From Clostridia bacterium (GTDB lineage Bacteria > Bacillota > Clostridia > CAKSNL01 > HGM11501), in NCBI GenBank assembly GCA_017411325.1, contig JAFQQJ010000041.1, positions 1 to 46,726 of the forward strand: 46,726 bases of DNA, written 5' to 3'. The translations under genes were made by a program, and so were the position numbers. Shown one piece after another: positions 23,312-46,579 of the stretch (the stretch's first letter is position 1; every line of letters starts with the position of its first letter). The notes below the pieces were generated by a model. It was not told where the DNA came from and made no database searches. It saw only the letters and a list, made by a program, of their open reading frames with translations.

Positions 23312-23329
23312 TGAAAGGAGAGAATTAAA

Positions 23330-26300
23330 ATGAAAAAAATATTAGCTATTTTACTTGCAGTGCTGACACTTGCATCGCTTATTACAATTCCCTCCTTTGC
23401 AGAAGGAACAAATATTATCCTTGAAAATACATCATTTGATAATCTTGATGATGCCCTTTCTCTTTCAAGAGGAAACAGAGTGACCTTGACAGGAGACTTT
23501 TCGTGGGAAAGCACGATTAAGGATTTTTACGGAACAAGTTTCACTCTTGCCGCAAACGGCAATACATTAAAGCTTGATTCCGATATCTCAATTAACAGCG
23601 GAAGCCATGCTATATTCAGAGATATTGTAGTAGACCTTCAGGGCCACAGCATAACTGTTACCGCAAGAGGAAAGGTAACACTCGGCAAGGGCACAAAGGT
23701 TATAAACGGTGGCGGAAAAATCGGCGGAGCATTTGCTCTTTCGGGAATCGGCGCAGAGCTTATAATGGAAGACGGAAGTGAAATTACTTCCTGTAAAGCC
23801 GATATGGCATCAGCCATAAGCCTCGGTTCCGGCTCAAAGCTTACAATGGAAGGCGGAAAAATAACAGGCAACGAAGCAACGGGTAAAAACGGCGGTGCAA
23901 TCCGTGCTATAACAGATTCTGAAATTATCCTTTCGGGAAATGCAACGGTAACAGGAAATACGGCAGCGGGCGAAAACTGTAACATTGTTGTAGTAAACGA
24001 AAAAATACTTAAGCTTTACAGATACTATACCGGTAAGGCGGGCGTTACAAAAGAGGGCGGAAACAAGAGAACAGAGCCCTTCGGAATAGATGCCGGTGCA
24101 ACAGGCGCAGAAAATCTTTTCTCCGACCAGGATGAAGAATTAACCGCAGTAATTGATGACTATGGAAGACTTGTGTGGGGCGAAGCGGTAAAAATTGAAA
24201 AACCCATGCAGGGCGGAAATAACACCCCCATTGTCGAGGAAAACCCCTATGAGCAGAAGCAGAATTTGACAGATGAAGACAGGATTCAGGCGCAGAAGGG
24301 CAAAACCTTTGAGGCTAAAGGTAACTACTACACCGATATGGGAAGCGCCATTTCCGATGCTGACGGGGAAACCATAAGACTTATTTCAAATGCAACGTGG
24401 ACAGGACCCTTAAAGGACTTCTATAACGCAGATATTAATATTGACGGAAACGGATTCACTCTTAAAACAGAGGAAGTTTTTGTAATAAACACAGGAAGCA
24501 CAATGCATTTAACAAACATAACTGTTGACTTAAACGGAAAGTGCTTTAAGGCACATGGTTCAAGCGGTCACATTATCTACGGAAAAGGATGTACCCTTAT
24601 AAACGGCGGAAGTGATTTTGGCGGTGCAACAACCTCCGAAGGAAAAGGCTCTGTCGTTACAATGCTTCCCGGTTCTAAAATTACGGGAGCAAAGGGTATT
24701 ATGGGCTGCGGTATCGCATCACTTACCGGCGGTACAATCGAGCTTCTCGGCGGTATAATTGAGAACGGTGTAACAGAGCAGGAAGGCGCGGTACTCATAA
24801 ATCCCGGAGCTAAGGTTGTGCTCGGCGGCGACTTTACGATGAAAAACAATAAAACCGGCGCAAACGAAACAGGCATTAAGATAGGTGACATCGGTGCACT
24901 TACCGTTCAGGGTGAATTTACGGGAAACGTAGGCATTAAGTTTACCGGAAATCCCTCTGCCGGAGTAAGGATAGGAACTGATGCAGGCGGTGCAACGGGA
25001 ACCGAAAAGATTTATATGACAGGAAACCCCTCGTTGGTTGTTGTAACTGACGGAAACGGCGGCCTCACCTTCGGAAGTGCAGGCTCAAGCGTTGTATCTT
25101 CGGGTACGAGTGGCTCTTCCAATCAGACAGGAACTACCCCCTCAGGCGGAACGACCACTCCCGTAACGGGTGGCAGTGCTATAACGCCCCTTTCCGAAAA
25201 GGATAAGGCAGCAGCAGCCGAAGGCAAAATATTCAAGCTTAACAATAACTATTATTCAGATCTCGGAAGTGCCATTGTTGATTCTCAGGGTGTTAAAATT
25301 ACAATGGTAGGCTCCGGCGAATGGACAGGTCCCATGAAGGACTTCTACAATTCCAAAATTAACATTGACGGTAACGGCTTTGTGCTTAAGCTTCCTCATG
25401 TAATCGTTATAAATTCAGGAAGCAGCATGACCCTTACAAACGTAACCGTTGACCTTAATAAAAAATGCTTTAAGGCACACGGAAGTAGCGGTCACATTAC
25501 CTACGGAAGCGGATGTACATTAATAAACGGCGGTTCTGACTTTGGCGGTGCAACAACCTCTGAAGGTCCGGGGTCAATTGTTACAATGCTTCCCGGCAGT
25601 AAAATTGTTGGCGCAAAGGGAATAATAGGCTGCGGTATCGCATCTCTTACAGGCGGAACAATCGAGCTTCTCGGCGGAAGTATAGAAGACGGCAAGTCAG
25701 ATTCCGGCGGAGTTGTTAAGATAAATCCCGGTGCAAAGGTTGTGCTTGGTGGCGACTTTACACTTAAGAATAACAAATCCGGTGGAAGCGAAGGCGGCAT
25801 AAATATAGGCGACATCGGTGCGCTTACCGTAAGAGGAAACTTTACAGGTAGTGCAGGCATCAAATTTGATGCAGGCGCATCGGAAGGACAGATAATCGGT
25901 AAGGATGCAGGCGGTGCAACAGGGACAGAAAAGATTTACTTAATCGGTAATTCAGGTCTTGTTGTTGTAACCGACGGTAAGGGCAATCTTACACTCGGAA
26001 AGAAAGGCTCGTCAGCAGTTTCAGATAAGGAAGCAATCGAAAAGGCAGAAAAAGAGGAAGAACTTAAAAAGGCTGAAGAAGGAAGCATCTACTATGTAGA
26101 TAAATCTTCATGGAAGGCAACAGCAAATTCAGGTGCATGGCAGAGAACTCCCGATAAGGCAATAGACAACGACCCGAAATCAGTGTGGCATACAGAATAC
26201 GGCTGGGAAAACAACAAGGTAACCTGGAAAACACCACTTCCGCATAACCTTGATGTTGACTTCGGAAAAGAAATTGATGTTGCAGGCTTCACACTTATTA

Positions 26301-27430: not shown

Positions 27431-27448
27431 AGAAAGAGAGTGATAAAA

Positions 27449-30400
27449 ATGAAAAAAATCAGCTTGATTACTCTTAGCGTAATTCTTTCTCTTACTCTTT
27501 GCATTTCATCGGTTATTTCATCCTTTGCAGAGGAAGGATTTGAAATCCCTGAAATAGAAGAAGTAACAGAAGAAGAGCTCGTCGAAGTTATCGAGGAAGA
27601 GGAAGCGGAACTTTACGCCGACGCCTCCACGGCAGTTTGCTATGTGGGTGAGGACGAAGCATCAAGAGTGTATTATGATACGCTCTGCGAGGCTATAGTA
27701 GGACTTGGCGATAACAATCTTAAGACGATTCACCTTATGAAAAACACTACATGGGAAGGTCATACCTATTCTGGTGGGTACGGTATTCACCATAGGGACT
27801 TCGTACTTGAAGGTCATGGATATACCGTGACATTAGGGCAGACGATTCACGTGAGCTTAGATTCTGACTTCACATTAAATGATGTGACTGTAAACTTAAA
27901 CGGAAGCTACTCCCTTTTGGTTGGTAATAACGGAAAGCTTACTCTTGGAGACAAAACAGTAGTTACGGGAAGAACAGGGGCAGGCTATGTGGTTGGCACA
28001 GAAAACAGAATGGGTAGCGGCGGTACCTTTACAATGCTTCCCGGAAGTAAAATTACAGGAAATACAGCAAATGACCTTGGTATAGTTTACGGAGGATGTG
28101 CATCTACAATTAAAATCGAAGGCGAAATTACAGGGAACACCTCTAATGCAGGTGCAATTCGTGTAAATCACACAAGTGTAAGAATTACCGTAGGCAAGGC
28201 TGCAAATATTACAGGAAACACATCCAAAAACATTGCAATTACGGCAGCTGATCAATTAACCGTTGCATCAGACTTCACGGGAACAGTCGGCGTTTCCTAT
28301 GGCTCTGCAGGTTCTTCTATCGGTACAATTGTGGAAGGTGCTGATGTTTCAGGCATTACTCTTGACGGTTCAAGCACAATCGCAACAAATAAAGACGGTG
28401 TACTTACCTGGGAAACAGCTGATGAAACAGATGCAAGAACTGCAGTTTGCTACATAGACGAAAACGTAGCAGGGAAGAGATATGCATCCCTTCACGAGGC
28501 TATAAATGCGGCAGCTTCCGGAAGCACGATTTATGTAACAAAGGACATTACACTTGACATTGCTGCAAATACTACTTACGGATATAAGAATCTGACAATT
28601 AAATCAGACGGAGCTAAAAAGACTGTTACAGTAACAGGCGGAAGCATCATCTTTAAGGGAAGCTCAGCGGTTATAAATCTTGAAAACATTGCATTTGACT
28701 TTGCTTTTTCAGGCAAAAACTTCCGAGTTGACGACGGCGCAACAGTTAACTTAATCGGTGCTGACTTACTTAACGGTAAAGGTGGCGTAGGAGGAACTGT
28801 TGCAATAGGTTCGGGAACGTACGGACATCTTGTAATGGACGCAAACTCAACAATTTCCGGTCGTTCATCAGAATCTACAGCTAATATAGGAGGCGTAATA
28901 CACCTTCATAACGGTAACGGACACTCCACATTTACTATGAACGGTGGCACAATTATCAACTATAACACCACTCTTTATGCAGTATCTGCGTGGACTCAAA
29001 ACTGTACTATTACAATCGGCGGAAATGCAACTATTATAAACGGCACAAGCTCTGAAACAACTCCCGTAACAGGCACAAAAAATGCTATCAATTCAAGATA
29101 TGCATCCGTACTTGTTCTTAAAGGCAACTTCACTGGCGATATCAAGGTAAACTACGGCTCAATCGGTGATAAGTTCGGTGCGGCAGAAGAGGGAGCAACA
29201 ATTTCCGGATCACTTGTAAACTACTCAACAGGTAAACCTGCTGCAATTAAAAACGGCGACCTTATCTGGGACTATGCCTGCTATGTTGGAACCGATGTTG
29301 CGGCAAACAGATACTATACTGTAGGCGAAGCGTTAAAGGGAACAAAGACAAGCAAAGTTTATATGGTAAAGGATAGCGTTTGGGAGCCTTCTCTTGATGC
29401 AAATACAGGAACGTATGCAAATGCTAAGCTGACAGTAAACGGTAACGGCTATACGCTTACTCCTTCCAAGAGCATGAGAATGGCATATAACACAGATATC
29501 ATATTTGAAAATGTAATAGTCGATATGGATGGCAAGACGTTTACAATAACAGACGGAGCAAAGGTTACTCTTAACGACGGAGCTCACTTTATTAACGGTG
29601 GCAGTGGCTCAGGACAGGGCGGAACATTTGCAACCTGGGAAAATCACGATATAACAATTACAATGAACGAAGGCTCTTCAATCAAGGGAAGTAAGGCAGA
29701 ATACGGCGGTGCTATAGTTCTTAATTCCGGTTCTAAGTTCATTATGAACGGTGGCGAAATTTCAGGCAACTGGGCAAAGGTACCCGGATTCGGCGGCGGT
29801 GTAAGAGCAAATTCCGGTGCAAAGGTTACGATTTCCGGCAATGCAAAAATTGAAGGAAACAGAAGCGGTACTACTTGGGATGGTGCGAGGTCAGATAACC
29901 TTCAGCTTGCATCTGCAAGTGATTTAACCGTAAATCCAGGCTTTACAGGTCACATCGGAATATGGTTTGAAGCAAACACTGTAGAAGGAAATGCGGTAGG
30001 TAAGGCAGGAACTGGTCTTACAAGTCTTCCTTCCGTAAATTCAATCACAAACGATGCAAATATCAATCATTTCGGCTGGATTGATGCTGAAGGAAACATC
30101 ATCTGGCAGGTGGCACCCTCTATTGCTCCTACTCTTCAGTACGGTACCTATGCAGAGGGAACAAAAGGAATTATCAGATTTACAAACAGCTTTGAATCTG
30201 CTCCGGCAAGTGCGAAAATCACAGCATTCGGTACATATGTGCTGGATAATTCCAGCTTCTCCGAAAGTGATATGGAAGCAAGTGACAATAAGTTCTTTAA
30301 AACTGAGCAGAGCGTTTCGGCATCGGGAAAGAGCTTTATAACAGACCTTCACACAGGAAATCTTTCCAAGAGCTATACGGCATCATCATTCTGCTATATA

Positions 30401-30520
30401 GAGGGAATAGATGCACCTGTATTTGTTACAACAACAGCAGAGGCAATTAATTCTCGAGAGGGCGTAATCGAGCTTTCAGATGAAGCCGTTTCAGAATATG
30501 AAAGCTTATATGAAAACTGA
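27449..30520 (+). CDS. Secreted three-module beta-helix surface protein
   Basis: A protein of about 1023 residues with a signal peptide (1-27) and then an acidic stretch rich in Glu. Three modules each begin with a CY(V/I)-type motif and a YYxT/YASL-EA segment: ~63 (CYVGEDEASRVYYDT), ~334 (CYIDENVAGKRYASLHEAIN) and ~611 (CYVGTDVAANRYYTVGEALK). Each runs as a right-handed beta-helix rich in ITGN-, TLNDG- and FTMNGG-like turns. The last ~125 residues form a separate domain (LQYGTYAEGTKGIIRFTNSF, TAFGTYVLDNSSF) that recurs in the protein at 30801. I use the ATG at 27449, not the GTG at 27440. No anchor or catalytic motif is visible. Likely an adhesin or glycan-binding scaffold. Confidence 0.72.
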   Translation: MKKISLITLSVILSLTLCISSVISSFAEEGFEIPEIEEVTEEELVEVIEEEEAELYADASTAVCYVGEDEASRVYYDTLCEAIVGLGDNNLKTIHLMKNTTWEGHTYSGGYGIHHRDFVLEGHGYTVTLGQTIHVSLDSDFTLNDVTVNLNGSYSLLVGNNGKLTLGDKTVVTGRTGAGYVVGTENRMGSGGTFTMLPGSKITGNTANDLGIVYGGCASTIKIEGEITGNTSNAGAIRVNHTSVRITVGKAANITGNTSKNIAITAADQLTVASDFTGTVGVSYGSAGSSIGTIVEGADVSGITLDGSSTIATNKDGVLTWETADETDARTAVCYIDENVAGKRYASLHEAINAAASGSTIYVTKDITLDIAANTTYGYKNLTIKSDGAKKTVTVTGGSIIFKGSSAVINLENIAFDFAFSGKNFRVDDGATVNLIGADLLNGKGGVGGTVAIGSGTYGHLVMDANSTISGRSSESTANIGGVIHLHNGNGHSTFTMNGGTIINYNTTLYAVSAWTQNCTITIGGNATIINGTSSETTPVTGTKNAINSRYASVLVLKGNFTGDIKVNYGSIGDKFGAAEEGATISGSLVNYSTGKPAAIKNGDLIWDYACYVGTDVAANRYYTVGEALKGTKTSKVYMVKDSVWEPSLDANTGTYANAKLTVNGNGYTLTPSKSMRMAYNTDIIFENVIVDMDGKTFTITDGAKVTLNDGAHFINGGSGSGQGGTFATWENHDITITMNEGSSIKGSKAEYGGAIVLNSGSKFIMNGGEISGNWAKVPGFGGGVRANSGAKVTISGNAKIEGNRSGTTWDGARSDNLQLASASDLTVNPGFTGHIGIWFEANTVEGNAVGKAGTGLTSLPSVNSITNDANINHFGWIDAEGNIIWQVAPSIAPTLQYGTYAEGTKGIIRFTNSFESAPASAKITAFGTYVLDNSSFSESDMEASDNKFFKTEQSVSASGKSFITDLHTGNLSKSYTASSFCYIEGIDAPVFVTTTAEAINSREGVIELSDEAVSEYESLYEN

Positions 30521-30533
30521 GGAGGAATGTACT

Positions 30534-30680
30534 ATGAAAAAAACATATATTAAACCTTCTCTTGAAATTACAGAAATTGAAACAAAAGATGTGATAACCG
30601 TAAGCGGTATATTTGAAGACGTTGATATGATGAACACCATAGGAATCGGCAAAATAGATATTGAAATTGATTTAAACTAA
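30534..30680 (+). CDS. 48-residue peptide of unknown function
   Basis: A small gene starting at the ATG at 30534, seven bases after GGAGGAATG, which lies right after the preceding stop. It encodes 48 residues. The first half (MKKTYIKPSLEITEIETKDV, then ITVSG) is the KKxYxKP...SG style seen in many small Clostridia and Bacteroidetes peptides, which I recall as common but unassigned. The second half contains GIGKIDIEID. GIGKI recurs near the mature N-terminus of the next giant protein (VGIGKITMDMTV). No hydrophobic signal or cysteine is present. A GC-rich hairpin follows. It is co-transcribed with the surface genes; leader peptide, assembly factor or secreted-peptide precursor are all open. Confidence 0.7.
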   Translation: MKKTYIKPSLEITEIETKDVITVSGIFEDVDMMNTIGIGKIDIEIDLN

Positions 30681-30698
30681 GGCAATAAAAACTAAAAC

Positions 30699-30729
30699 GG
30701 CTGCTGCGGCTTTGAGTCGCAGCAGCCCC
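30699..30729 (+). promoter_or_regulatory. GC-rich hairpin without T run
   Basis: GGCTGCTGCG pairs with CGCAGCAGCC around a nine-base loop. It is followed by CCCGAAGAAG and no T run, so mRNA stabilisation or processing between the peptide gene and the next giant gene is more likely than termination. Confidence 0.55.
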
Positions 30730-30800
30730 CGAAGAAGAAAACTACGGCACATAATGTGCATTTATATAAATCAGGCTTACTATGTAAAGGAGGGCATTTT

Positions 30801-33800
30801 ATGATTATGAAAGGATTGAAAAAAGCAGTTTCGGCACTGATGGCTGTTTTTATGCTGTCAGCAAATATTTATGCGTCCACCGGCTTTGCGGAAGATTATA
30901 ATTATGTCGGCATTGGAAAAATCACCATGGATATGACCGTATCTGAAGATGAGTTGAAAGATGCAAGGGCTGAGGCAAAAAAAGAGCTTGCCTTTCTGGG
31001 GGCGGATTCTGCATATAACCTTTCTTTGGTTGACCTTGCGACAAGCAAATCTGCAATTTATACCATAGTGGATGAAGCGGCAGATAGTATTGGAGCGGAA
31101 ATTATTACCCTTCCTTATAACAATACATATTCTCTTGCAAGTGCTGAAATTTTGTATGAAGGAGTATCGGATGACGGCAAACTTCTGTCTGATGCTTCCG
31201 TCGTAAATTATGAATCGTCAGTAATTACGGCAGACGGACTTGGTCGCGCAATCGTAAAAGCAGGGGAGGATAAATACCTCATTAAGACCGAGAAAGCTGC
31301 TATCGCCCTTGTTTTGGTTTCGGGACAGAGCAATGCTGCCGGTGCAGAATCTGATGCATCGCTTGCTCCCTCGGCTCTCGGAAAATATAAGGGACGCTAC
31401 TTTATAACAAATAGTATGAATCAGGCGGTTTCGCTTTCCGATATAACATGGGAAGAAGCGAGATATGAAGCGGAACACGGCGGGGCACCGTCAACTTCCG
31501 TTGCCAAAGGCGGATGGGTCGGAACCATGAGAGGTGCAGGTACGGCATCTTCTTTGGGCAAAAGACTTTCTGACGAATGGAATATGGCTGTATGGGTTGT
31601 GAATACAGGATTTGGCGGACATCCGATGGAAGGCTTTGATCCAGCAAAAACAACACATTCTGACTATACAAACACAGTAAACATAGTGAAAAAGGTTAAA
31701 GAGGTTATCGGAAGTGACCGTCACTATGTGCTTGACAATTCAAAAACAGGACTTTTCTGGATTCAGGGCTGCTCCGACGGTATCGGAACCGAGAGCGAAA
31801 ACACCATGGCTGAATATACACAGATGTTTATGAATATGTATTCGGGCTTTAAGAACGATATCGGAATAAACTATGCAGGTATCTGGCTTGTCCGTGCGGG
31901 AACGTATAATAACGGCGATAAAGACTTTTATATGTCAGGGCCCCGTCTTTCTCAGATTTATATGGCAAACTCCAAGGCGGAAAGCTATAAAAACATTCAC
32001 CTCGTATTTAACCCCGACATCTGGAGAACTGATGCGGGTGTCAAGGCTCATTTCGAGGAAAGATACCCTGATGCAGATGCGTTTAAGAGCAGCTACGGCT
32101 ATGACAGACCGATCACGGTTAATGAAGTGAAACCCGATATTCATTACAGACAAAGCGGATATAACGAGCTTGGCGACATAGCGGGAGAGGTTATGGCGGA
32201 TATTTTATCCGGCAATGCAGCAACGCCCATAAGCGCTGAACTTTTAGGCTATGACGGAAATAAAATTTCAGATACCGGCTTTGAGCTTATGGAAGGGGAA
32301 ACGCTATTGGCGGTACCCTTTGCGACAAGTCACTATTACAACGCAAGCTTTTCTCTCAATGTAACTGTAGCTTCTACAAATGTTGCAACATTTGATAACG
32401 CTGCTTTCACATTGAAGGGAGTATCTGAAGGCGAAACTACAGTGAATATTTATCTTGGCGAAACTCTTCTTAAAAGCTATCCCGTAAAGGTTACGGCAGA
32501 AGAGGTAGAACAAGATGCGGTATGCTATATAGGCGAAGACGAAGAAACAGGAGTGTATTACGATACATTTATGGATGCTGTAAAGGCGACAAATCACACT
32601 TCCGTGAAAACTATACACCTCTTGAAAGATGCGATCTGGGAAGACTACACTTATGAGAACGGATACGGTGCTCATCACAGGAAGTTCGTTCTTGAAGGTC
32701 ACGGTTATACATTAAAGTTGAACCAGCAAATGCATATAAGTCTCAATTCAGACGTTACATTTAACAATGTAATTGTTGACCTTAACACAAGCTACAACAT
32801 ATTGCTTGGTGCGGGAGGTAAGCTTACACTCGGTGACAAAACGGTTGTTAAAAATGCAAACTCTGATTTTTATGCAATAGGATTGGAAAACAGAATGGGT
32901 GACGGTGGATCCTTAACGTTGCTTCCCGGAAGTAAGATAACAGGAAACAAATCGAATGTGCTCGGTATAATTTACGGAGGCTGTGCAGGTACAATCAAGG
33001 TTGAGGGTGAAATTACCGGAAATACGGCATCAAATGGTGCTATTCGCATAAATAACAGTAATGTTAAAGTTATAGTTGGCAAAAGTGCCAATGTAACAGG
33101 TAACACTTCAAAAAATATCGCACTTACCGGTGCAAATCAGCTTACAATCGCTGCAGACTTTAATGGTGAAGCAGGCATAAGCTTCGGAGGCGATGGAAGC
33201 GATTTTGCAACAGTTGAAGTAGGAGCAGAACTTAACGGAATTACAAACGATTCAGATGCCGAGCTTGAAGCAAAGGTTATAAGCGGGAAGGCAATATGGA
33301 AGGTAAAAGGAGCAGAGGCTACCGGCAAGTGCTATATCGGTAGCGATACTGAAAACATGCTGAGCCTTCATGAGGCAATTAATCTGGCACCTTCCGGAAG
33401 CACAATCTATGTAACTGATAACATCACCTGGGATAATGTTACAACTTATTGGAATAAGAATGTTACAATAACATCTGTCGGAGATAAGAAGACAATTACA
33501 ATGCCGGCAACATCAAACCTCAGAATTACGGGTGAAAGCGGCAAAATTACATTTGAAAACATAACCTTAGACTTTAATTTCAACGGCAAAATGCTTGCAA
33601 TTGATGACGGCGCGACAGTTAACTTAATTGGTGCTGACATCTTAAACGGTAAAGGTGGCGTAGGCGGAACTGTTCAGCTTGGTGCCGGAACTAAAGGTCA
33701 CCTTGTAATGGACGAAAACAGCCTGATAACGGGCCGTGCTACAGAAAATGCGGCGGTAGGAGCGGTTATCCACCTTCACGGAGGAAACGGAATTTCTACC

Positions 33801-35411
33801 TTTACAATGAACGGCGGTAAAATCATAAACTATGATGCATCAGGTACACGCTATGCCGTTGCTTGCTGGAACTCAAACAGTACCGTTACAATCAGCGGCA
33901 ATGCAACTATTGTAAACGGGGAAAGCTCTGAGGCAACACCTTCTGTCGGCAGAGCAGATGCCATAAGCGTAAAAAATGCAAGCCAGCTTATACTTAAGGG
34001 CAAATTCGAAGGAAGCATAAAGGTAAACTGTGCGGCAGCAGGAAATGTGTTTGGTATAGCAGAAGACGGGGCAGAAATTGCAGGTAGTCTTACTAAATAT
34101 AATAGTGAAACAACGGCACATATAGAAAACGGAATGCTTATCTGGCTTACAGACGGAGACTGCTATATAGGTGACGCCTCTTACGATAAGATAACACTGA
34201 AGGAGGCAATAGAAAAAGCACCTTCGGGAAGTGTAATTCACCTTGTAAGAGACGTTACACTTAATGAAACTATAATGCTCAACAGAATCGGAGTAAGCTT
34301 AACTCTTGACGGAACAAACGGGGATGGAATGTATAAAATAGAATTCCCCATAGGGGCAGAAGAGGAGCTTTCTTCTGCAAATAAGCGTATCTTCCTCATA
34401 AGAAACGGACATCTTACATTAAATAACGTTGTTCTTAAAGGCGGTATGCATAAAGACTATGGCGGAAGTGTAATCGTTGAAGAAGCCTCCTGCTCACTTA
34501 CACTCACGGGTAAAACCGAGATAAGAGGGGCAAGGGCTACAAACGGCGGTGCAGTTTGGGTGAGAAAAGGAACGCTTACAATTAAGGACGATGCTTTAAT
34601 TACTGAAAATACAGCACAGATTCACGGCGGAGCTATTTACTTAACTGATGTGGGCGGCAAGGTAAACCTTGAAGGCGGTAAGATTACAGGCAACTTTGGA
34701 CCCGGTGGCGGCGGACTTTATGCAGGTGCCGGTACTAACATCTACTTTAAGAATGATGCTTATGTTTACGGCAACATCGCAAACAGAGAAACTAATGCGG
34801 AAAGCAACATCATCCCCGAAAATGCGGAAATTATAGTATTAAACGATAGTTTTACCGGCAAAGCGGGTATAAGCTACGGTAATCTTAAGGAAGTATTCGG
34901 TGAAAAGACCGGAGGAGACGGGGAATACAATCTGGTTTCCGATAAAAACAGTGCATATTACGGATATGCTGAGGACGGTAAGTTGATATGGATTCCCGGT
35001 CAGCTTAAAGTGAGTACGGATGCCGATGCAGGAACTAAGGCAGACGGAAAGGCAACGATAAGATTTATAACAAAATTCGATAAAGCGGATAACTTAAATG
35101 CACTTTCTTACGGTACATATATAATTCCAAAATCACTTTTTGCTGATTTTGAAAAGGACGTATACGGAAGTACTGAAGAGGCATTAAAGGCATACTTTGT
35201 AAGTGCAAAGAAGGGTGACGCTACTTACAAAGCTCCATCTACCGGCGAAAGCTTTGGCGTTGACTATGTTGAAATTCCTTCTACTGCTTTCGATATGGAA
35301 TTTGTAGCTGTAAGCTTTATAAATATTGACGGAACATATATCTACATCCGACACAGCGATGTAAGCGTAGAAGGCTTCGGAGAAGACCTTAAAACGCTTG
35401 AACAGGCGTAA
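30801..35411 (+). CDS. Secreted esterase/beta-helix surface protein
   Basis: A 1536-residue secreted protein with signal peptide (1-31). The mature N-terminus has NYVGIGKITMDMTV, echoing the upstream small peptide. Residues ~165-470 form an SGNH/sialate-O-acetylesterase-like (SASA, PF03629) domain: VLVSGQSNAAG with Ser177, NTGFGGHPMEG, FWIQGCSDGIG, and DIHYRQSGYNELG with Asp446 and His448 as the likely acid and base. A short Big2-like domain (~485-560) follows. Three beta-helix modules begin at ~575, ~844 and ~1121. The C-terminal ~125 residues (KATIRFITKF, SYGTYIIPKSLF) match the end domain of the previous giant protein. Likely removes acyl groups from glycans while bound at the cell surface. 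Start chosen at ATG 30801 after AAAGGAGGG. Confidence 0.75.
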   Translation: MIMKGLKKAVSALMAVFMLSANIYASTGFAEDYNYVGIGKITMDMTVSEDELKDARAEAKKELAFLGADSAYNLSLVDLATSKSAIYTIVDEAADSIGAEIITLPYNNTYSLASAEILYEGVSDDGKLLSDASVVNYESSVITADGLGRAIVKAGEDKYLIKTEKAAIALVLVSGQSNAAGAESDASLAPSALGKYKGRYFITNSMNQAVSLSDITWEEARYEAEHGGAPSTSVAKGGWVGTMRGAGTASSLGKRLSDEWNMAVWVVNTGFGGHPMEGFDPAKTTHSDYTNTVNIVKKVKEVIGSDRHYVLDNSKTGLFWIQGCSDGIGTESENTMAEYTQMFMNMYSGFKNDIGINYAGIWLVRAGTYNNGDKDFYMSGPRLSQIYMANSKAESYKNIHLVFNPDIWRTDAGVKAHFEERYPDADAFKSSYGYDRPITVNEVKPDIHYRQSGYNELGDIAGEVMADILSGNAATPISAELLGYDGNKISDTGFELMEGETLLAVPFATSHYYNASFSLNVTVASTNVATFDNAAFTLKGVSEGETTVNIYLGETLLKSYPVKVTAEEVEQDAVCYIGEDEETGVYYDTFMDAVKATNHTSVKTIHLLKDAIWEDYTYENGYGAHHRKFVLEGHGYTLKLNQQMHISLNSDVTFNNVIVDLNTSYNILLGAGGKLTLGDKTVVKNANSDFYAIGLENRMGDGGSLTLLPGSKITGNKSNVLGIIYGGCAGTIKVEGEITGNTASNGAIRINNSNVKVIVGKSANVTGNTSKNIALTGANQLTIAADFNGEAGISFGGDGSDFATVEVGAELNGITNDSDAELEAKVISGKAIWKVKGAEATGKCYIGSDTENMLSLHEAINLAPSGSTIYVTDNITWDNVTTYWNKNVTITSVGDKKTITMPATSNLRITGESGKITFENITLDFNFNGKMLAIDDGATVNLIGADILNGKGGVGGTVQLGAGTKGHLVMDENSLITGRATENAAVGAVIHLHGGNGISTFTMNGGKIINYDASGTRYAVACWNSNSTVTISGNATIVNGESSEATPSVGRADAISVKNASQLILKGKFEGSIKVNCAAAGNVFGIAEDGAEIAGSLTKYNSETTAHIENGMLIWLTDGDCYIGDASYDKITLKEAIEKAPSGSVIHLVRDVTLNETIMLNRIGVSLTLDGTNGDGMYKIEFPIGAEEELSSANKRIFLIRNGHLTLNNVVLKGGMHKDYGGSVIVEEASCSLTLTGKTEIRGARATNGGAVWVRKGTLTIKDDALITENTAQIHGGAIYLTDVGGKVNLEGGKITGNFGPGGGGLYAGAGTNIYFKNDAYVYGNIANRETNAESNIIPENAEIIVLNDSFTGKAGISYGNLKEVFGEKTGGDGEYNLVSDKNSAYYGYAEDGKLIWIPGQLKVSTDADAGTKADGKATIRFITKFDKADNLNALSYGTYIIPKSLFADFEKDVYGSTEEALKAYFVSAKKGDATYKAPSTGESFGVDYVEIPSTAFDMEFVAVSFINIDGTYIYIRHSDVSVEGFGEDLKTLEQA

Positions 35412-35426
35412 AGCCACTTAATTTGC

Positions 35427-35447
35427 GGAAAAGGCTGATGCCTTTTT
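35427..35447 (+). terminator. Intrinsic terminator
   Basis: GAAAAGGC pairs with GCCTTTTTC around TGAT, with the T run forming part of the stem. It follows the stop of the esterase/beta-helix gene by 16 bp. Confidence 0.65.
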
Positions 35448-35464
35448 CATATAGTTTCCTTCCT

Positions 35465-35511
35465 TTTATGCCGAAAGGCATAAAAAGCTCCCGGGCGAAA
35501 GCCCGGGAGCA
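35465..35511 (+). promoter_or_regulatory. Twin GAAA-tetraloop hairpins before the SLH gene
   Basis: Two stems in tandem, both capped by GAAA: TTTTATGCC/GGCATAAAA, then GCTCCCGGGC/GCCCGGGAGC. There is no T run after the second. They lie just upstream of the ribosome binding site of the SLH gene, so they may stabilise or insulate its mRNA. Confidence 0.65.
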
Positions 35512-35534
35512 TCCCTAACAATGGAGGTATGGCA

Positions 35535-38500
35535 ATGAAAAAAATAATATCGCTGTTTCTTACTGTTTTAATGATTTCTTCTTTTACCTCTCTTTCATAT
35601 GCAGAGGAGCTTAAAGATACCAATGTGATAGGAGAAATTAAATTTTCGGATCCTGAAAAGATAAATCTGTCCGATGAAGAAATGGCAGAAACGGTGCAAT
35701 TTGAAAAAATAGAAAGTATAAAGACAGGAGAAACTTTGGTCGGCAGCTCATCCGACGAAGATGCATCAATTCTTTACGACTTTGACAAAGCCTTTCTTGA
35801 TACAGATAAAAATGTAATAAGATTTACGTTTAAGGAAGAAACCTCTGTTTCAGGCATCAGACTGTATAATGATGAGCTTTCTGCAATCGGCGGTGAAATT
35901 TACGGCTCGGTTGACGGAAACGACTATTTCCTTATAGGCGGTCTTAATGTATCTGGCGGAAAAATTTCCGTAACAGATTTCGGATTTAATGTAAACGTGA
36001 AATATCTTGCCCTTAAAGCAGAAGGGGAACTTTCAATCCCCGAACTTCACGTTCTTAAAGGAAAAGACGGCTATGATACCGTAACTGAAGAAACGCTTTC
36101 CGATGCTCTTTATTATAAGAGCGAGAGTAAAAAGTGGACAATTACGGCAGATTCTGAGTATAAGCCAAATCCTGCCAAGAATATGTTTGACGGAAATAAG
36201 GACACCTTCTGGCATTCTGACTATACAACAGAGGGCGGCGTAAAGCCCGTAACGGCACCGCCTCACAGTATAACGGTCAAATTCAACGAAGAAAAGGTTA
36301 TTTCCGGCATAAGATATACTCCTAGAAGCGGAAACAGTAGAATAGTTACGGCGGATATCTACATTTCTCCCGACGGAAACGGATTTTATAAGGCAATTCG
36401 TGCAAGTTTCAGCTATTCGGGTAAGAGCGAACAGGTTGTTGACTTTGGCGAAAACATAAAAGTCAAAGCAGTAAAATTCGTATCCTGTGCAACCGAGGGA
36501 AATCAGTATTCAACGGGTGCGGAACTTGAATTTAAAAAGCCCAATATGGCATATATGACTTCCGACAGTGCAGACGAGGTAATAAAGGCATATACAGATA
36601 AGTATACCGTTTCTGAAATCTATGCTGATGCTTTTGACGGAAACGTGGATACTGCATTTGAAAGCAGGATAGGCGACGTTATAAGCGTGAAGTTCAATGA
36701 AGTATGGGGCGTTTCAGGAGTGAGAATTCACTCTGACGGTGAAAACATTACGAGAGCAAAATTCTCCGTAAGCTATGACGGTATGAATTTCATAGACTTT
36801 GCAGAAAACGACTTACTTGACGGATGCTATCTTTTCAGAGCAAATTTAAAGGTAAAGGCAATCAAGGTCGAAATAAAAGGACAGAGTGCAGAGACGGTAA
36901 ACATAACGGAAATTGCGCCAATCGCAGAATGTGCTTACTATAATGAAATTGCACTTAATAATGAATTTTCTGATACTAGTGGTTTTACTGTAAAGGCTAC
37001 AAGCCAGAATACCTTGCAGCCTGCGTCAAATTTAATTGATGGAAACATCCATACAATATGGCATTCATTCTACGATAATGCCAAGGGGATAAAAGATACA
37101 CCTCCGATTGATATTGTTGTTGACTTCGGAGAACTTAAAGAAATATCAGGCTTTAACTACTATCCCACAAGACAGAATAAGAATGCGGAATCCGCAGGTT
37201 TCTTTAAAAAGCTTACAGTTGCAATAGCTTTTGAAGAAGGGGAGAATCCCACATGGTATCCTCTTATGGATGACTCGTATTCTTATGGTTCCTATTTTGC
37301 CGTACAGACAACAGCCTTTGACTTTAACTATAAGATAAGGCAGATTAAAATCACCGTAAAGGAAGGTAATTACGATTATGCGACGGCAGGGGAAATAAGA
37401 TTCCTTAAAGGCGACAACTCCAAAAAGCCCAAGAGTGCAGAAGCAACAAGCGAATTCGCCGTATTTGAGTATGACGAGCAGAATGATGTTTCGCTTCTTT
37501 ATAAGTTAAACGATGCAAAAGAGCTTCTTGGCGTTGAATTTGAAGGAACTGATGTCTCTGAAAGCTATTATACTGTTACAAATGAAGGAATAATGCTTTC
37601 TAAATATTTCTTCACGGATTATATTGAAGGTGAAGATAATCAGGATATAACATTGCGTCTTAAATTCTTCAGGGGTGAAGATATAGCCTACACCATAAAA
37701 ATCGGGGGAGCTGAAAAGCACAATGTTACATTTACATCCGGCGCAAACGGAAGCATAACGGCAAAAGCAGGCGACAGTTCTGTTTTGAGCGGAAGTGAAG
37801 TTAAGCGAAACGAAAAGCTCATTTTTACATCTGAGTGCGAAACCGGCTATAAGGTTTCTGATGTAAGCATTACAACAGCAGAGGATGTTTACGAAAAAGC
37901 ATCTGTTGCAAAGACAGATTATACGGTATCGGCTTCCGATGAATTTTCGGGAAATCCGGCAGGGAATATGAACGACGATAATATAAATACCTTCTGGCAT
38001 TCATATTACGAGGTTGTAAACGGAAGCGCCGTAAATCTGATGAGACCTCCTCACAGCGCCATTGTTACATTCAATGAAAAGATGAATAACCTTGGCGGTA
38101 TGAGCTATGTTCCGAGGCAGGGAAGTGACGGCGGAAGAATCATTCGATATAAGGTTTATGTTTCTTATGACGGAGAAAGTTTTGAAACAACACCTGTTGC
38201 ATCGGGAACACTCAGAAACGTTAAAGACGAGCAGGAAATCAAGTTTAACTCCATATTGAACGGAGTTGCTGCGATAAAACTTACGGCTGAGACAACCTCC
38301 GGCGGAACAACCTGCGAAATTGCAGAAGTAAATATGTACACACTTACGAAAAAGTATGTTACATATAAAAAGGTGCACGAAGGAACAAAAACAGCTGTAT
38401 TTGAAATTGACGACCTTTTTGCCGACATCAGTTTTGCTGTTAATTTCGAGGCTATCCCGGAAGGAGAGGCAAATATCACATATGATGTTTCGCATATTGA

Positions 38501-39788
38501 TGAAACTATTCTTCCTTCAAAAGCAGAAAAGGGAAATGATGCCGTAATCAATATTAAAGCGGTTGACGACTACTGGGTACCCGAAGAAGTAACGGTAATG
38601 TCCGGAACTGTTACTCTTTATAAGGATAATGACTATACTTACAGCATCAGCGATAACGAAAATGCAGTACTTACTGTAAGAAACGTTACAGAGGATATTA
38701 AGGTTGTAATTACTGCAAGAGACCATGATACATATAAGCTTTCCTATACAGATAAATACGGTGCGACAGGTGCCCTTCCCGAAGATACCTATGTAAGGGC
38801 AGGAACTTCCGTTACACTTACAAAGGTAAAACCCAAGCTTGCAGGCTATGTATTTACAGGCTGGAGTTATGAGGGCGTGGTTTATAAGTCGGGGGCTGAA
38901 TTCGTAATGCCTGCATACAGCGTAAATTTTGAAACAGCATGGGAAAAAGATACATCGATTGAAGAAGACGGAACTAACCGCCCCGGAAAAGGCAATGGAG
39001 GCGGTGGTGGTGGAGGCGGTTTTGCTGCAGGAGGCACACCGACTCAGCCTGCAGGAGCAACGCATTCAGTATACCTTGTTGGAACCGGTTATGTGGATAT
39101 TAAAACCGGAGAAAAAATCCCGGCACCAAAGGTGATTGCAGGATATGAATTTATGGGCTGGTTTTTAGATCAGGCATTTACAGTTCCTTATGCAAATAAC
39201 GGAGTTACAGAAAGCGTTATGCTTTACCCATATTATAAAAAGGTAAGAAACGCATCAGACTTTAAGGACATAGAAGATCATTGGGCAAAAGGAAGCATAA
39301 CAGATATGTACTTAAAGGGATTTGTGTCGGGTAAGGCTGATGGAATATTTGATCCCGATTCGTATATTACGAGAGCAGAGTTCTGTCAGATTCTCTTTAT
39401 GATGTCGGGCGGCGTAGCAGCAGGAGAAGAAGGATTCAAGGATGTATCAGATTCCGACTGGTATAAAAACGCCGTGACCTGGGCTGTTACTAATGGTATA
39501 ACAAAGGGCATGAGCGAGGATGAATTTGCTCCCAACGAAAGAATAACCCGTGAGCAGATGGCGGTTATGATTTACCGATATGCAACAAATCTGGGAATCG
39601 GCTGGGAAATTGAAAACAGTGCAGAATTTTCTGACAGCACTGAAATTTCCGATTATGCACAGTATCAGATAAGCTGGGCAAGCGAAAAGGGCATTGTAAA
39701 GGGATATCCTGACAACGCCTTCAGACCGAAAAACAATGCAACAAGAGCGGAAGCTGTTGCAATGCTTCAAAGACTTTTAAGCATCTGA
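35535..39788 (+). CDS. S-layer-anchored multi-discoidin surface protein
   Basis: A 1417-residue secreted protein with signal peptide (1-25). Discoidin-like domains occur at ~195-340 (NPAKNMFDGNKDTFWHSDY), ~475-635 (QPASNLIDGNIHTIWHSFYD) and ~795-945 (NPAGNMNDDNINTFWHSYYE), with a fourth, weaker one near ~85-185. A bacterial repeat (KLAGYVFTGWSYEGV) and an InlB-like repeat (IAGYEFMGWFLDQAF) flank a poly-Gly linker at ~1155. Three SLH domains (~1240-1417) end the protein: FKDIEDHWAKGSITDMYLKG, FKDVSDSDWYKNAVTWAVTN and YAQYQISWASEKGIVKGYPD. SLH domains bind pyruvylated wall polymers, so this is the clearest wall anchor of the cluster. Start chosen at ATG 35535, seven bases after GGAGG. It may display carbohydrate-binding domains. 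Confidence 0.85.
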   Translation: MKKIISLFLTVLMISSFTSLSYAEELKDTNVIGEIKFSDPEKINLSDEEMAETVQFEKIESIKTGETLVGSSSDEDASILYDFDKAFLDTDKNVIRFTFKEETSVSGIRLYNDELSAIGGEIYGSVDGNDYFLIGGLNVSGGKISVTDFGFNVNVKYLALKAEGELSIPELHVLKGKDGYDTVTEETLSDALYYKSESKKWTITADSEYKPNPAKNMFDGNKDTFWHSDYTTEGGVKPVTAPPHSITVKFNEEKVISGIRYTPRSGNSRIVTADIYISPDGNGFYKAIRASFSYSGKSEQVVDFGENIKVKAVKFVSCATEGNQYSTGAELEFKKPNMAYMTSDSADEVIKAYTDKYTVSEIYADAFDGNVDTAFESRIGDVISVKFNEVWGVSGVRIHSDGENITRAKFSVSYDGMNFIDFAENDLLDGCYLFRANLKVKAIKVEIKGQSAETVNITEIAPIAECAYYNEIALNNEFSDTSGFTVKATSQNTLQPASNLIDGNIHTIWHSFYDNAKGIKDTPPIDIVVDFGELKEISGFNYYPTRQNKNAESAGFFKKLTVAIAFEEGENPTWYPLMDDSYSYGSYFAVQTTAFDFNYKIRQIKITVKEGNYDYATAGEIRFLKGDNSKKPKSAEATSEFAVFEYDEQNDVSLLYKLNDAKELLGVEFEGTDVSESYYTVTNEGIMLSKYFFTDYIEGEDNQDITLRLKFFRGEDIAYTIKIGGAEKHNVTFTSGANGSITAKAGDSSVLSGSEVKRNEKLIFTSECETGYKVSDVSITTAEDVYEKASVAKTDYTVSASDEFSGNPAGNMNDDNINTFWHSYYEVVNGSAVNLMRPPHSAIVTFNEKMNNLGGMSYVPRQGSDGGRIIRYKVYVSYDGESFETTPVASGTLRNVKDEQEIKFNSILNGVAAIKLTAETTSGGTTCEIAEVNMYTLTKKYVTYKKVHEGTKTAVFEIDDLFADISFAVNFEAIPEGEANITYDVSHIDETILPSKAEKGNDAVINIKAVDDYWVPEEVTVMSGTVTLYKDNDYTYSISDNENAVLTVRNVTEDIKVVITARDHDTYKLSYTDKYGATGALPEDTYVRAGTSVTLTKVKPKLAGYVFTGWSYEGVVYKSGAEFVMPAYSVNFETAWEKDTSIEEDGTNRPGKGNGGGGGGGGFAAGGTPTQPAGATHSVYLVGTGYVDIKTGEKIPAPKVIAGYEFMGWFLDQAFTVPYANNGVTESVMLYPYYKKVRNASDFKDIEDHWAKGSITDMYLKGFVSGKADGIFDPDSYITRAEFCQILFMMSGGVAAGEEGFKDVSDSDWYKNAVTWAVTNGITKGMSEDEFAPNERITREQMAVMIYRYATNLGIGWEIENSAEFSDSTEISDYAQYQISWASEKGIVKGYPDNAFRPKNNATRAEAVAMLQRLLSI

Positions 39789-43654: not shown

Positions 43655-43683
43655 TTGCAGAATTTGATAAAAGATGCTATAAT
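43655..43683 (+). promoter_or_regulatory. Strong promoter before the accessory region
   Basis: TTGCAG (43655-43660), a 17-bp spacer and TATAAT (43678-43683). It would give a leader of about 110 bases containing the palindromic repeat element before the 91-residue gene. Confidence 0.7.
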
Positions 43684-43720
43684 GAGTTTAACGGTGCCGG
43701 AATTATACAAGCAATATTAA

Positions 43721-43782
43721 TGTAGGGGTCGATGCCCACATCGACCCGAAAACGGACAGATGAGGGAATCTGTCCCTACGAA
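43721..43782. repeat. Palindromic intergenic repeat (MITE-like)
   Basis: The element has short terminal inverted repeats (GTAGGG ... CCCTAC) and two internal hairpins: GGGTCGATG/CATCGACCC and GGACAGAT/ATCTGTCC. I recall similar elements scattered between genes in Clostridia genomes. It sits between a strong promoter and the next gene and would be transcribed. Confidence 0.75.
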
Positions 43783-43803
43783 ATCGTCGAAAGGAAGTGC
43801 GAA

Positions 43804-44079
43804 ATGAAAGAACTAATCGGCAAAATCATTCTTGTGGGAATGACATATTACAACAAAAACAATGAATTTGTTGAACAAAAACAATTTTGGGGAACGATTG
43901 TATCTATAAATGGGAATGATGTTGTGATTAAGCAGAAGAATGGCGAAGAATTTACAATTCCAAATGATAAAAGAGCAATCGAACCTGCAAATCCAGGAGA
44001 ATATAGATTAAGATCAACAGGTGAAGTTGTAGAAAACCCCGATTTTCTTTCAACATGGAATGTTACATTACCAGACTGA
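43804..44079 (+). CDS. Small beta-rich protein, unknown
   Basis: A 91-residue soluble protein without signal or membrane segment. The start is the ATG at 43804, after AAAGGAAGTG; an upstream in-frame ATG lies inside the repeat element and is rejected. The first ~55 residues suggest a small barrel (FWGTIVSINGNDVVIKQKNG), followed by a conserved-looking tail (PGEYRLRSTGEVVENPDF). I recall similar small proteins among orphan immunity or accessory genes, but this is not established. It has A+T-rich codon use like the following genes and is followed by the promoter/leader repeat R1. Confidence 0.65.
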   Translation: MKELIGKIILVGMTYYNKNNEFVEQKQFWGTIVSINGNDVVIKQKNGEEFTIPNDKRAIEPANPGEYRLRSTGEVVENPDFLSTWNVTLPD

Positions 44080-44180
44080 TTTTTATCCTGACTTGATACG
44101 AACTTGCCACCTATAATCTTGGCAGCCGGATTATACAGTCTTTATAAATTGATTTAATGATTTTAATGAGGTGAAATTAA
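44080..44180 (+). promoter_or_regulatory. Promoter/leader repeat R1
   Basis: First of three related intergenic sequences. TTGGCA (44119-44124), a 17-bp spacer containing ATTATACAGTCT, and TTATAA (44142-44147). TGCCA/TGGCA just upstream could form a small stem. It precedes the esterase gene. Confidence 0.6.
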
Positions 44181-45224
44181 ATGCTTGAAAATATACTGAA
44201 AGAAAAAAATCTTCCTCCTTTTAAATCGTCGGAGGAGATGTTAGATATCTTGTTAAAAGAGGAATATGGATACATGCCTCCAAAACCTGAAGGCATAACT
44301 TATAAGTCAATAGAAAACTATATTCCCAATTTTTGTGCAGGAAAAGCAATTTCGAGAAAGGTCGAAATAACTTCACAGTTTTCAAAAAAAGAGTTCACAT
44401 TCCCCATTTATGTCACTATTCCAAAGAAGGAAGGAAAGCATCCGTTTTTTATATGCATAAACTTTCGCGACAGTGTTCCCGACCGATATATTCCTGTTGA
44501 AGAAATTGTTGATAATGGTTTTGCGGTGCTTTCATTCTGCTATAAGGATGTTACCGATGATAATAACGATTTTACAAACGGTCTTGCAGGAGAACTTTAT
44601 GAAAACGGAAAAAGAGGCGCAAGCGATCCCGGAAAAATCGCTATGTGGGCGTGGGCAGCTCAACGAGTTATGGATTATGCAGAAACTCTGGATTGCCTTG
44701 ATTTTGAGTGTAGCATTGTGTGTGGTCATTCCCGTCTTGGAAAAACTGCACTTTTAACAGCAGCAACGGATGAACGCTTTAAGTATGCCTATTCTAATAA
44801 TTCCGGTTGTAGCGGTGCGGCAATCTCTAGAGGTAAACAAGGGGAACGAATTGAAGATATCTGCAAAAACTTTCCGTATTGGTTCTGTGAGAATTACAAA
44901 AAATATGTAAATAATGAATATAATATGCCTTTTGACCAGCATTACCTTGTAGCTTCAATTGCACCAAGATATGTATACATAGCAAGCGCTGATGAGGATA
45001 AATGGGCGGATCCTGATTCTGAAATGTTAACTTGCTATGCAGTAAGCGGAATATATGAAAAATACAGAAAAAAAGGTTTTGTGTGTGAGGATAGACTACC
45101 ACAGGTGAATGATATGTTTCATGATGGTTGTGTAGGATATCATTTGAGGGCGGGTCTGCATTACTTTAGCCGTGAGGATTGGTTGAAGATTATTAAGTTT
45201 GTAAAGAAACACAGTTGCATCTAA
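44181..45224 (+). CDS. CE15-like alpha/beta-hydrolase (glucuronoyl esterase family)
   Basis: A 347-residue alpha/beta-hydrolase with no signal peptide. VCGHSRLGKTALLTAATDER has the GxSRxGK nucleophile elbow (Ser184) characteristic of CE15 and acetyl-xylan-esterase-like enzymes. SNNSGCSGAAISRGKQGERI and FPYWFCENYKKYVN are CE15-style blocks. The candidate catalytic His is in the RAGLHYFSREDW segment (His327). CE15 enzymes cleave ester links between glucuronoxylan and lignin; those are mostly secreted, so a cytoplasmic form suggests a small ester substrate. It is preceded by promoter repeat R1. The start follows GAGGTGAAATTAA. Less A+T-rich than its flanking small genes. Confidence 0.75.
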   Translation: MLENILKEKNLPPFKSSEEMLDILLKEEYGYMPPKPEGITYKSIENYIPNFCAGKAISRKVEITSQFSKKEFTFPIYVTIPKKEGKHPFFICINFRDSVPDRYIPVEEIVDNGFAVLSFCYKDVTDDNNDFTNGLAGELYENGKRGASDPGKIAMWAWAAQRVMDYAETLDCLDFECSIVCGHSRLGKTALLTAATDERFKYAYSNNSGCSGAAISRGKQGERIEDICKNFPYWFCENYKKYVNNEYNMPFDQHYLVASIAPRYVYIASADEDKWADPDSEMLTCYAVSGIYEKYRKKGFVCEDRLPQVNDMFHDGCVGYHLRAGLHYFSREDWLKIIKFVKKHSCI

Positions 45225-45340
45225 ACCTTATGCCTCGCAAGTGATGGAAACAGTGGCATCTAAAATATGCAGTCTTTATAGTAAAGAATGTCGAATGTTG
45301 TCGAAAAATAAAAGAGAGTAATTAACGGAGAGATGATTCT
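45225..45340 (+). promoter_or_regulatory. Promoter/leader repeat R2
   Basis: Second copy. GTGGCA (45253-45258), a 17-bp spacer ending GCAGTCT, and TTATAG (45276-45281), then TGTTGTCGAAAAATAAAAGAGAG leading to the next gene's start region (shared TGTCGAAA with R3). Confidence 0.55.
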
Positions 45341-45946
45341 ATGAATTCAACAATTAAAATATTGAGAGTAACATTGTCATGTATTTTATTAATATGTTCG
45401 ATTTTTTTTCTCTTAAAGATATTTGTTTTTTTAGGTGAAAATGATGAAATATTTCAAGAGTTCACAGATTCACAAATTTTATATGGAAATGAAAAGAGTT
45501 TTGCTGACGAAAAAAATATATATGTGATTAATGAACAATCAGGGATTATACATATTTTCGATTACAACGGAACATTTTTAAGAAGACTACAATTGCCCAC
45601 AAAAGGTGGAACAGTTTGGGTAACAATGGACGATGATTTAAAAGCCTATTGTGTTAGAAGCGATATGTTAATTAGTATAGCAGATATAAATTCCATCGAA
45701 CAACAAGAGGCATACTATAGCAATCCTAAAGAATTTTACAGTTCTTTTGTGTCAGATAATAGTATTGAAAGTTACATAAAGAAAAATATAGTAACAGTTG
45801 GTGCAAATATGACAAAGAAAGATATCGTACTGGATATTAAAACTTCAATCTTTTCTTTAGAGTTTTGTATGACATTATATGCTATTTGCATACTTGCATT
45901 TTTTGCTATATCAGGGTTATTTAAGAAGTTGCTTAAGCAATATTAA
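45341..45946 (+). CDS. Two-membrane-segment protein, unknown
   Basis: A 201-residue protein with a membrane helix at ~8-31 and another at ~172-192, and a ~135-residue domain between them that is probably extracytoplasmic. The domain has a propeller-like strand pattern (NIYVINEQSGIIHIFDYNGT and FLRRLQLP). Codon use is strongly A+T-rich compared with the core genes to the left, consistent with recent transfer. No family was recognised. It lies between promoter repeats R2 and R3. Confidence 0.7.
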   Translation: MNSTIKILRVTLSCILLICSIFFLLKIFVFLGENDEIFQEFTDSQILYGNEKSFADEKNIYVINEQSGIIHIFDYNGTFLRRLQLPTKGGTVWVTMDDDLKAYCVRSDMLISIADINSIEQQEAYYSNPKEFYSSFVSDNSIESYIKKNIVTVGANMTKKDIVLDIKTSIFSLEFCMTLYAICILAFFAISGLFKKLLKQY

Positions 45947-46041
45947 TTTTGATTCCTGATTTGATATGAACTACCACTGAAAAAGACTGGCATCCAGATT
46001 ATACAGTCTTTATAGTAAGATTGTCGAAAGAGAGTGATTAT
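45947..46041 (+). promoter_or_regulatory. Promoter/leader repeat R3
   Basis: Third copy. CTGGCA (45987-45992), a 17-bp spacer containing ATTATACAGTCT, and TTATAG (46010-46015), then TTGTCGAAAGAGAGTG. Its left part (CCTGATTTGATATGAACT) matches R1 (CCTGACTTGATACGAACT). Confidence 0.65.
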
Positions 46042-46518
46042 ATGGTGTATGGAGCAATAAGCAGGGATGATGAAAAATATTATACATACTTGAAAAAAGT
46101 TTTCGATGCCATTGACAATAGACAGAATGATTGTAATTGGCTTATTACTAATTGTGAGTGTTATCCACATAATCGTGAAATAGACGATTTGCTTCACAAT
46201 AGCGAATATTGTTGGATTTCAGGAGAAGAATTGACCAATATGATTTCAGAAGATGATTTTCAATGGATATGGGGAATATTGTCAGGATTTGATAAAAGTA
46301 TTGATTTATCAGAAATACTGAAATATAACATTAGTGAAGAGAATTTTGATGAATATTTTAAGAACCCTTTAGCATTACAACATCCATTGTCTTGTATTGA
46401 AATAGTTCCATTTGATAGTACATTTGTGATGATTTTAAGCAAGGATAAGGAAATAATAACTAATTTCAAGAAAGTATATTCGGACAGCAAAAACTTGTTT
46501 GAATATAATTTAGAATGA
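46042..46518 (+). CDS. Acidic small protein, possible immunity-type
   Basis: A 158-residue acidic, soluble protein without signal or membrane segment. The start is the ATG at 46042, after GAGAGTG; a TTG further upstream lies within repeat R3. Features include NCECYPHNREIDDLLHNSEY and FQWIWGILSGFD. Size, acidity and the isolated, A+T-rich setting recall immunity proteins of polymorphic toxins, but I cannot assign a family and no toxin gene is in the window. Genes of this kind often sit in repeat-separated cassettes like this one. Confidence 0.6.
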   Translation: MVYGAISRDDEKYYTYLKKVFDAIDNRQNDCNWLITNCECYPHNREIDDLLHNSEYCWISGEELTNMISEDDFQWIWGILSGFDKSIDLSEILKYNISEENFDEYFKNPLALQHPLSCIEIVPFDSTFVMILSKDKEIITNFKKVYSDSKNLFEYNLE

Positions 46519-46553
46519 TTTTTTGTACTAACGTAACATAAAACATTACAAAA

Positions 46554-46579
46554 CCCCACACGGGATTTCCCGTGTGGGG
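46554..46579. terminator. Strong hairpin at the IS left flank
   Basis: CCCCACACGGGA pairs perfectly with TCCCGTGTGGGG. It lies between the last accessory gene and the transposase leader. In IS200-type elements a terminator near the left end blocks incoming transcription; this one may do so. Confidence 0.65.

Follow-up and report, generated by a model that had tools for sequence, protein, structure and literature searches.

The repeats that stand before unrelated genes near the 3′ end of a contig from a Clostridia bacterium (JAFQQJ010000041.1, assembly GCA_017411325.1) are probably the junctions between one-gene cassettes in an integron-like array, with a site-specific recombinase supplied in trans that likely acts inside a 26-bp core. 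The window, by which we mean the whole stretch analysed, is 46,726 nucleotides long. A first-pass annotation had picked out three near-identical repeats and had read them as the promoter-carrying ends of mobile or modular gene cassettes. The repeats are real: the (T/G/C)TGGCA and TTATAA/G boxes stand 17 bp apart, and flanking sequence is shared on the left and on the right, as it described. Its picture of three similar repeats is modified in detail: one is compound, one has no right arm, and a fourth, truncated site is now added.

A complete site spans up to about 100 bp and consists of a left arm, the 26-bp core and a right arm that adjoins the next start codon. Two kinds of 26-nt core, type A (GGCATCYRGATTATACAGTCTTTATA) and type B (TGCATCTAAACCTTATGNNTCGCAAT), occur with the same arms and have GCATCTA in common; the 281 distinct sites collected comprise 201 of type A and 80 of type B. 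The left arm follows the consensus TTTTTnnnYTAACTTRAYAYGAACTTGnnnnAAAAAnATT, and its central motif was found at 138 of the 281 sites with at most six mismatches and at 119 with at most five, the corresponding rates in random 60-nt windows being 5.3% and 1.1%. The right arm, where present, reads TGTCGAATnTTGTCGAAAGGAG ahead of the start codon. Among type A copies, picked at four or fewer core mismatches, conservation is sharp from the T preceding the core through its final A and spans all 26 bp. Once duplicate stretches were removed, 32 of 40 steps from a type B to a type A site were tandem, with less than 60 bp between them. A left-arm hairpin was considered from compensatory-looking pairs seen by eye and was lost against shuffling of the arms (pairing 61, not higher than the 55.3 of shuffled arms, sd 5.1), and eight source-genome loci gave no Rfam match at gathering scores.

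All genes, arms and cores of the window array lie on the plus strand. Cassette 1 (gene at 43804–44079) encodes a small SH3-like protein, below Pfam cut-offs and with no assigned function. It is followed by site 1 (R1), with its left arm at 44080–44120, its type A core at 44121–44146 and, by sequence, no right arm. The gene of cassette 2 (44181–45224) encodes a CE15-like glucuronoyl esterase (PF22244, E=5e-30), the stop codon of which falls within the first core of the compound site R2. There a type B core, TGCATCTAAACCTTATGCCTCGCAAG (45216–45241), lies 13 nt ahead of a type A core (45255–45280), and a right arm with two copies of TGTCGAA follows (45281–45312). Cassette 3 (45341–45946) encodes a membrane protein predicted by eye, with no Pfam match over cut-off. 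Site 3 (R3) has its left arm at 45947–45988, a type A core at 45989–46014 and a right arm with one TGTCGAA at 46015–46036; it leads into the DUF2691-family gene of cassette 4 (46042–46518; PF10903, E=5.6e-8). Directly 3′ of this last gene lies the left arm of the fourth site, truncated and without a core (46519–46552), then a terminator-like hairpin (46554–46579) and more sequence to the contig end. The other window repeats align to R1 with 78% and 93% identity over 27 nt, and none of the four genes matched PHROGs. Elsewhere in the window, 20594–39788 holds five very large predicted proteins in a row (905 to 1551 aa), all on the plus strand, most of which, by eye, begin with what looks like a signal peptide; they are unrelated to the cassettes.

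The repeat recurs elsewhere in the source genome and in its relatives. A BLAST search with a 101-nt R1 query found 19 places in the source genome, 13 of them with E<0.002, and a 62-nt consensus found 12 copies at E<1e-4. Sites are present at many chromosomal loci: across the nine examined in the source genome there are 30 sites, 14 of type A and 16 of type B, at up to five mismatches. The exact core pattern GGCATCNNGATTATACAGTCTTTATA, with 24 fixed bases, was scanned against 84,980 prokaryote species (257 Gb) and matched 85 stretches; with all bases taken as equally frequent and the two strands counted, chance would yield about 0.002. Among the 80 of these 85 matches listed, all were from Oscillospiraceae or other Clostridia MAGs, and the hosts, where given among the matches listed, were all ruminants (goat, sheep, cattle, yak, water buffalo and deer). 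Every one of 44 genomes reached via 46 loci, and hence selected for carrying the core, holds between 1 and 16 core matches. The exact pattern had zero matches in viral contigs, and phage and plasmid collections gave no match over 80% of the query. MAG contigs frequently break off a few hundred bases or less from a site (for example L179, L203, L207 and L230; by eye), so copy numbers are possibly underestimated.

Within arrays, sites point the same way. Adjacent type A sites were co-oriented in 71 of 71 pairs, counted with no overlapping loci among L055–L139, and with both core types and duplicate stretches removed the figure was 162 of 163; the lone exception comes from L200, where one near-palindromic core was matched twice at overlapping positions. 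We took 124 intervals of 180–2500 bp between sites as cassettes. Their median length is 667.5 bp with a median ORF coverage of 0.85, and they usually hold one gene. An ORF of at least 30 aa was present in 120 of the 124, and in 111 of those 120 the longest ORF lay on the strand of the site; eight of the nine wrong-strand cassettes have no ORF longer than 63 aa, and in the ninth the values are 136 versus 91 aa. Cassettes have a median GC content of 33.7%, compared with 40.8% in the loci, which bears out the A+T-rich character first ascribed to the window genes. Their contents are diverse: the 95 cassette proteins aligned, from 96 listed, represent 52 Pfam families, with GDSL lipases, glucuronoyl esterases and PHP, HAD and GNAT proteins among the products, and 15 PADLOC models were matched among the same 95.

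Homology blocks between species often start or stop at cores. We collected sites with downstream bodies at least 80% identical, which gave 22 pairs from 15 cassette families, and upstream sequence was unrelated in all 22. Eleven of these have a MITE in the 80 nt that follow the core; such pairs carry less weight because some of the MITEs are DUF559 elements that may be self-mobile. The remaining 11 pairs, MITE-free and from 11 families, all have unrelated upstream neighbours. By comparison, tiles outside cassettes that match between genomes at 80% identity or more retained their neighbour in 77 of 85 control pairs; these pairs are not independent. Seen from the other side, one left flank has four distinct continuations in four genomes, and 10 more left flanks, neither MITE nor other repeat, have two each (sorted by eye); flanks of MITEs and other repeats have up to five. 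Variation at the repeat boundary between relatives, as the first-pass annotation had envisaged, is seen between the source genome (L023) and isolate S3M_St_2 (L109), which share a 4.2-kb flank at 95% identity and diverge after the site. The assembly of L109 also includes L056 and is genome G005, which has its matches at the same places as genome G001 of the same genus.

Three of the four window cassettes lie beside other neighbours in other gut Clostridia species. Cassette 1 recurs in L197/L090 with another downstream neighbour, and a homologue of the esterase cassette in L208/L072 has different neighbours. Cassette 4 is 95% identical in L193, where the upstream sequence is unrelated, and its homologue in L135 has a complete site where the window keeps the left arm only. 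For cassette 3 there was no homologous cassette among the paired sites of the compared loci. The comparison data are MAG assemblies throughout, with many pairs not independent, and it is from these that cassette mobility is suggested; they showed no circle or excision event. Cassettes often harbour a DUF559 gene flanked by MITE-like sequence (CCTCCCCTGTGTAAGGGGAGG / CTCCCTTTACACAAGGGAGCC). This element may co-opt the left arm; it occurs in L169, L170, L173, L219 and others, and at 11 loci in the flank-gene survey.

Two sets of pairs were used to map breakpoints. In eight upstream-homologous pairs (at least 91% identity, same core type, no MITE), identity is 0.95–0.99 before the core, 0.79–0.94 within it and 0.45 right after it, where random type A pairs have 0.40. 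In eight downstream-homologous pairs (at least 93%; three from one family, four without MITE), identity at the variable core positions 6–8 is 0.50 versus 0.60 in random pairs, and over the first 7 nt past the core it is 0.82 (0.71 in the four MITE-free pairs) versus 0.40. Exchange therefore most likely takes place between core position 9 and the core end, in the block ATTATACAGTCTTTATA. In some pairs the shared sequence begins only 7–30 nt further on, inside the right arm, and this scatter of 5′-side breakpoints may reflect non-coding divergence or a second breakpoint. Judged by eye, the adjacent core type agrees in nine of nine upstream-homologous pairs of at least 91% identity from different loci, and disagrees in four of six pairs below 90%, where three of the four set a compound BA site against an A site. 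Core type can also be uncoupled from the cassette: one cassette has a 5′ core of type A in one genome and of type B in another (L183/L221).

We propose that a cassette unit comprises right arm, gene, left arm and core. Two directly repeated cores would synapse, crossover in the ATTATACAGTCTTTATA block would release a circle, and this circle would re-enter at any other core, so that arrays would grow in a single orientation. Units would thus move as excised circles, the repeated TTGACA/TGTCGA arm motifs may bind the recombinase, and cassettes would be able to pass between species.

We infer a trans-acting enzyme of the tyrosine recombinase type, encoded elsewhere. Six places in the source genome encode tyrosine recombinases that pass the model cut-off: three are lone recombinases of about 280 aa, one is XerS-like (below the cut-off of that model), and the remaining ones look like element integrases or fragments. 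The lone recombinases were set aside as candidates, as they look like DNA invertases and two of them (L210 and L211) have inverted sites of their own; a palindrome search at the third (L209) gave no match. In L210 (7217–7500), L211 (10852–11110) and, for relatives in other genomes, L280–L282, a segment of about 230–260 bp 3′ of the recombinase lies between inverted ACCACATAA-N6-TTATGTGGT-like sites and is likely an invertible promoter switch; L283 has one such site, with the remainder masked. None of 4,326 ORFs in 133 array loci resembles the six tyrosine recombinases of the source genome, and by eye no recombinase is found among the gene clusters common to at least four of 89 loci. Among the 12 of 45 site-bearing genomes examined, Xer-like enzymes are the only broadly shared kind of recombinase, but by eye the XerC/XerD or XerS-like set differs from genome to genome; these enzymes remain candidates. 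Repeat models run over 387 kb near recombinase and other genes (L257–L303) found one weak place (L288), and an empty-site search by flanks returned partial matches only, with no clean empty site.

Upstream of cassette 1, a promoter-like TTGCAG-17-TATAAT on the plus strand (43655–43683) is followed by a degenerate core-like stretch (43693–43712); both assignments, made from sequence, are tentative, and the stretch is not one of the places matched by the repeat models in L028. Directly 5′ of gene 1, at 43719–43787, lies a REP-like palindrome of hybrid type (GTAGGGGTCGATGCC...ATCTGTCCCTAC), parts of which are also present in L069, L250 and L298. In L117 and L181 a promoter-like stretch, and in L115 the end of one, is followed by a core-like GTGCATCTGGATTATG (GTGCATCTGAATTATG in L181) and then by a normal site. 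This layout is possibly a platform or attI-like array start, and the L115 and L181 contigs break there. The window's promoter-like motif and degenerate core (43655–43712), a candidate attI with a common promoter Pc, have a layout similar to that in L117.

It is very improbable that the sites are nothing more than conserved promoter or leader repeats, copied before unrelated genes with no cassette mobility. Cores do lie a median of 40 nt ahead of the longest ORF, and on the plus strand R2 and R3 carry a TTGGCA-like-18-TATAGT that agrees at 9 of 12 positions; however, the 18 promoter-like sites of the region are near the shuffled mean of 13.6 (sd 3.3), and conservation of the whole 26-bp core, core-bounded homology and unrelated upstream neighbours would be left unaccounted for. 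The type B core, by eye, has no promoter hexamers. Of the original proposal, the mobile cassettes are supported, by homology blocks bounded by cores and by variation at the repeat boundary; a promoter role of the shared ends is not supported by these hexamer, shuffling and conservation results. We predict that cassette genes are expressed from upstream or cassette-borne promoters and not mainly from the core. Read on the minus strand, a type A site has a core TATAAT and, 16–19 nt away across the putative crossover, a right-arm hexamer resembling a −35 box. This hexamer agrees with TTGACA at five or six positions in 79 of 201 type A sites; the rate is 3.8% when random windows that share the −10 are scored, and common descent alone could produce the excess. 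In R3 the minus strand reads TCGACA-18-TATAAT (45998–46027), 11 of 12. Joining of ends would reconstitute this putative minus-strand promoter at type A sites.

Non-autonomous transposable units, MITE-like or of the single-strand transposase type, could also build same-direction arrays by inserting beside an existing copy, and are consistent with the dispersed copies, with motifs TTGACA/TGTCGA inverted across the two arms (by eye) and with the source genome's two above-cut-off matches to Y1 transposases. We regard this as improbable: neighbours share a single core and each is without a full end of its own, core type and cassette are separable, arm pairing does not exceed that of shuffled arms, and by eye no transposase recurs among the flank genes, the DUF559 element aside. 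A degenerate classical integron or CALIN, with diverged attC sites and an integron integrase acting now or formerly elsewhere, would match the layout of an ORF with a 3′ site, in a single orientation and with the junction close to the site's right-hand end, as well as the gene diversity and the A+T-rich cassettes, and CALINs without an integrase are known. Yet of the 281 sites, none has GTTRRRY at 8 nt or less from the core's right end, 39 have RYYYAAC up to 90 nt upstream, and none has both boxes. Mean folding z-scores range from −0.36 to −0.81 on either strand (type A −0.50 top and −0.36 bottom, n=81; type B −0.81 and −0.69, n=42; left-arm sites only). The integron integrase model TIGR02249 was over cut-off neither in the source genome nor in any of 44 other site-bearing genomes, in incomplete MAGs and with control genomes also below it. 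We therefore consider this explanation unlikely.

The reading that we favour, an integron-like one-gene cassette array served in trans, admits a more specific form, which we advance tentatively and with less than even confidence. It would be a non-IntI gene-capture system of gut Clostridia, with a dedicated trans recombinase, two interchangeable core types, many loci and ends that rebuild a minus-strand promoter (TCGACA-18-TATAAT). The pooled cassettes would include plant-fibre esterases, sugar kinases, defence-like genes and membrane proteins. Such a pool would account for trade in small adaptive genes, including esterases that degrade fibre, and would probably be invisible to attC-based surveys; given the identity of the enzyme, it would offer a potential tool for sequence-specific recombination. 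A literature search of limited scope, with partly narrow queries, found no description of such arrays in Clostridia.

Among known systems, the Xer (pdif/dif) modules of Acinetobacter share small modules, short sites and enzymes encoded elsewhere. Their sites are reportedly inversely oriented, whereas here they are direct (162 of 163). Compared by eye, the type B core, GGTTTGCAT-7-TTATGTG, may resemble a dif arm pair. The superintegron of Vibrio cholerae likewise has near-identical sites of about 100 bp, the VCRs, between unrelated cassette genes. VCRs are attC sites and form one array beside intI, whereas here there are many loci and no integrase over cut-off. According to the IntegronFinder 2.0 report (PMC9024848), integrons are extremely rare in Firmicutes, with one complete integron (Limnochorda pilosa) and a few CALINs. 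Integrons and CALINs share with these arrays co-oriented one-gene cassettes with a 3′ site, mixed and often unknown functions and, as far as genome comparison shows, shuffling of units. The attC boxes are R′, GTTRRRY at the junction, and R″, RYYYAAC upstream. The present arrays differ in having neither attC boxes nor folding, two conserved core types, nine loci in one genome, and no integron integrase over cut-off, which a CALIN does not need. The array would work like an integron, but the canonical integron hallmarks tested fail. Integrons are the textbook route to a collection of single genes, and the cassette pool in the 45 gut Clostridia genomes examined would be a parallel solution.
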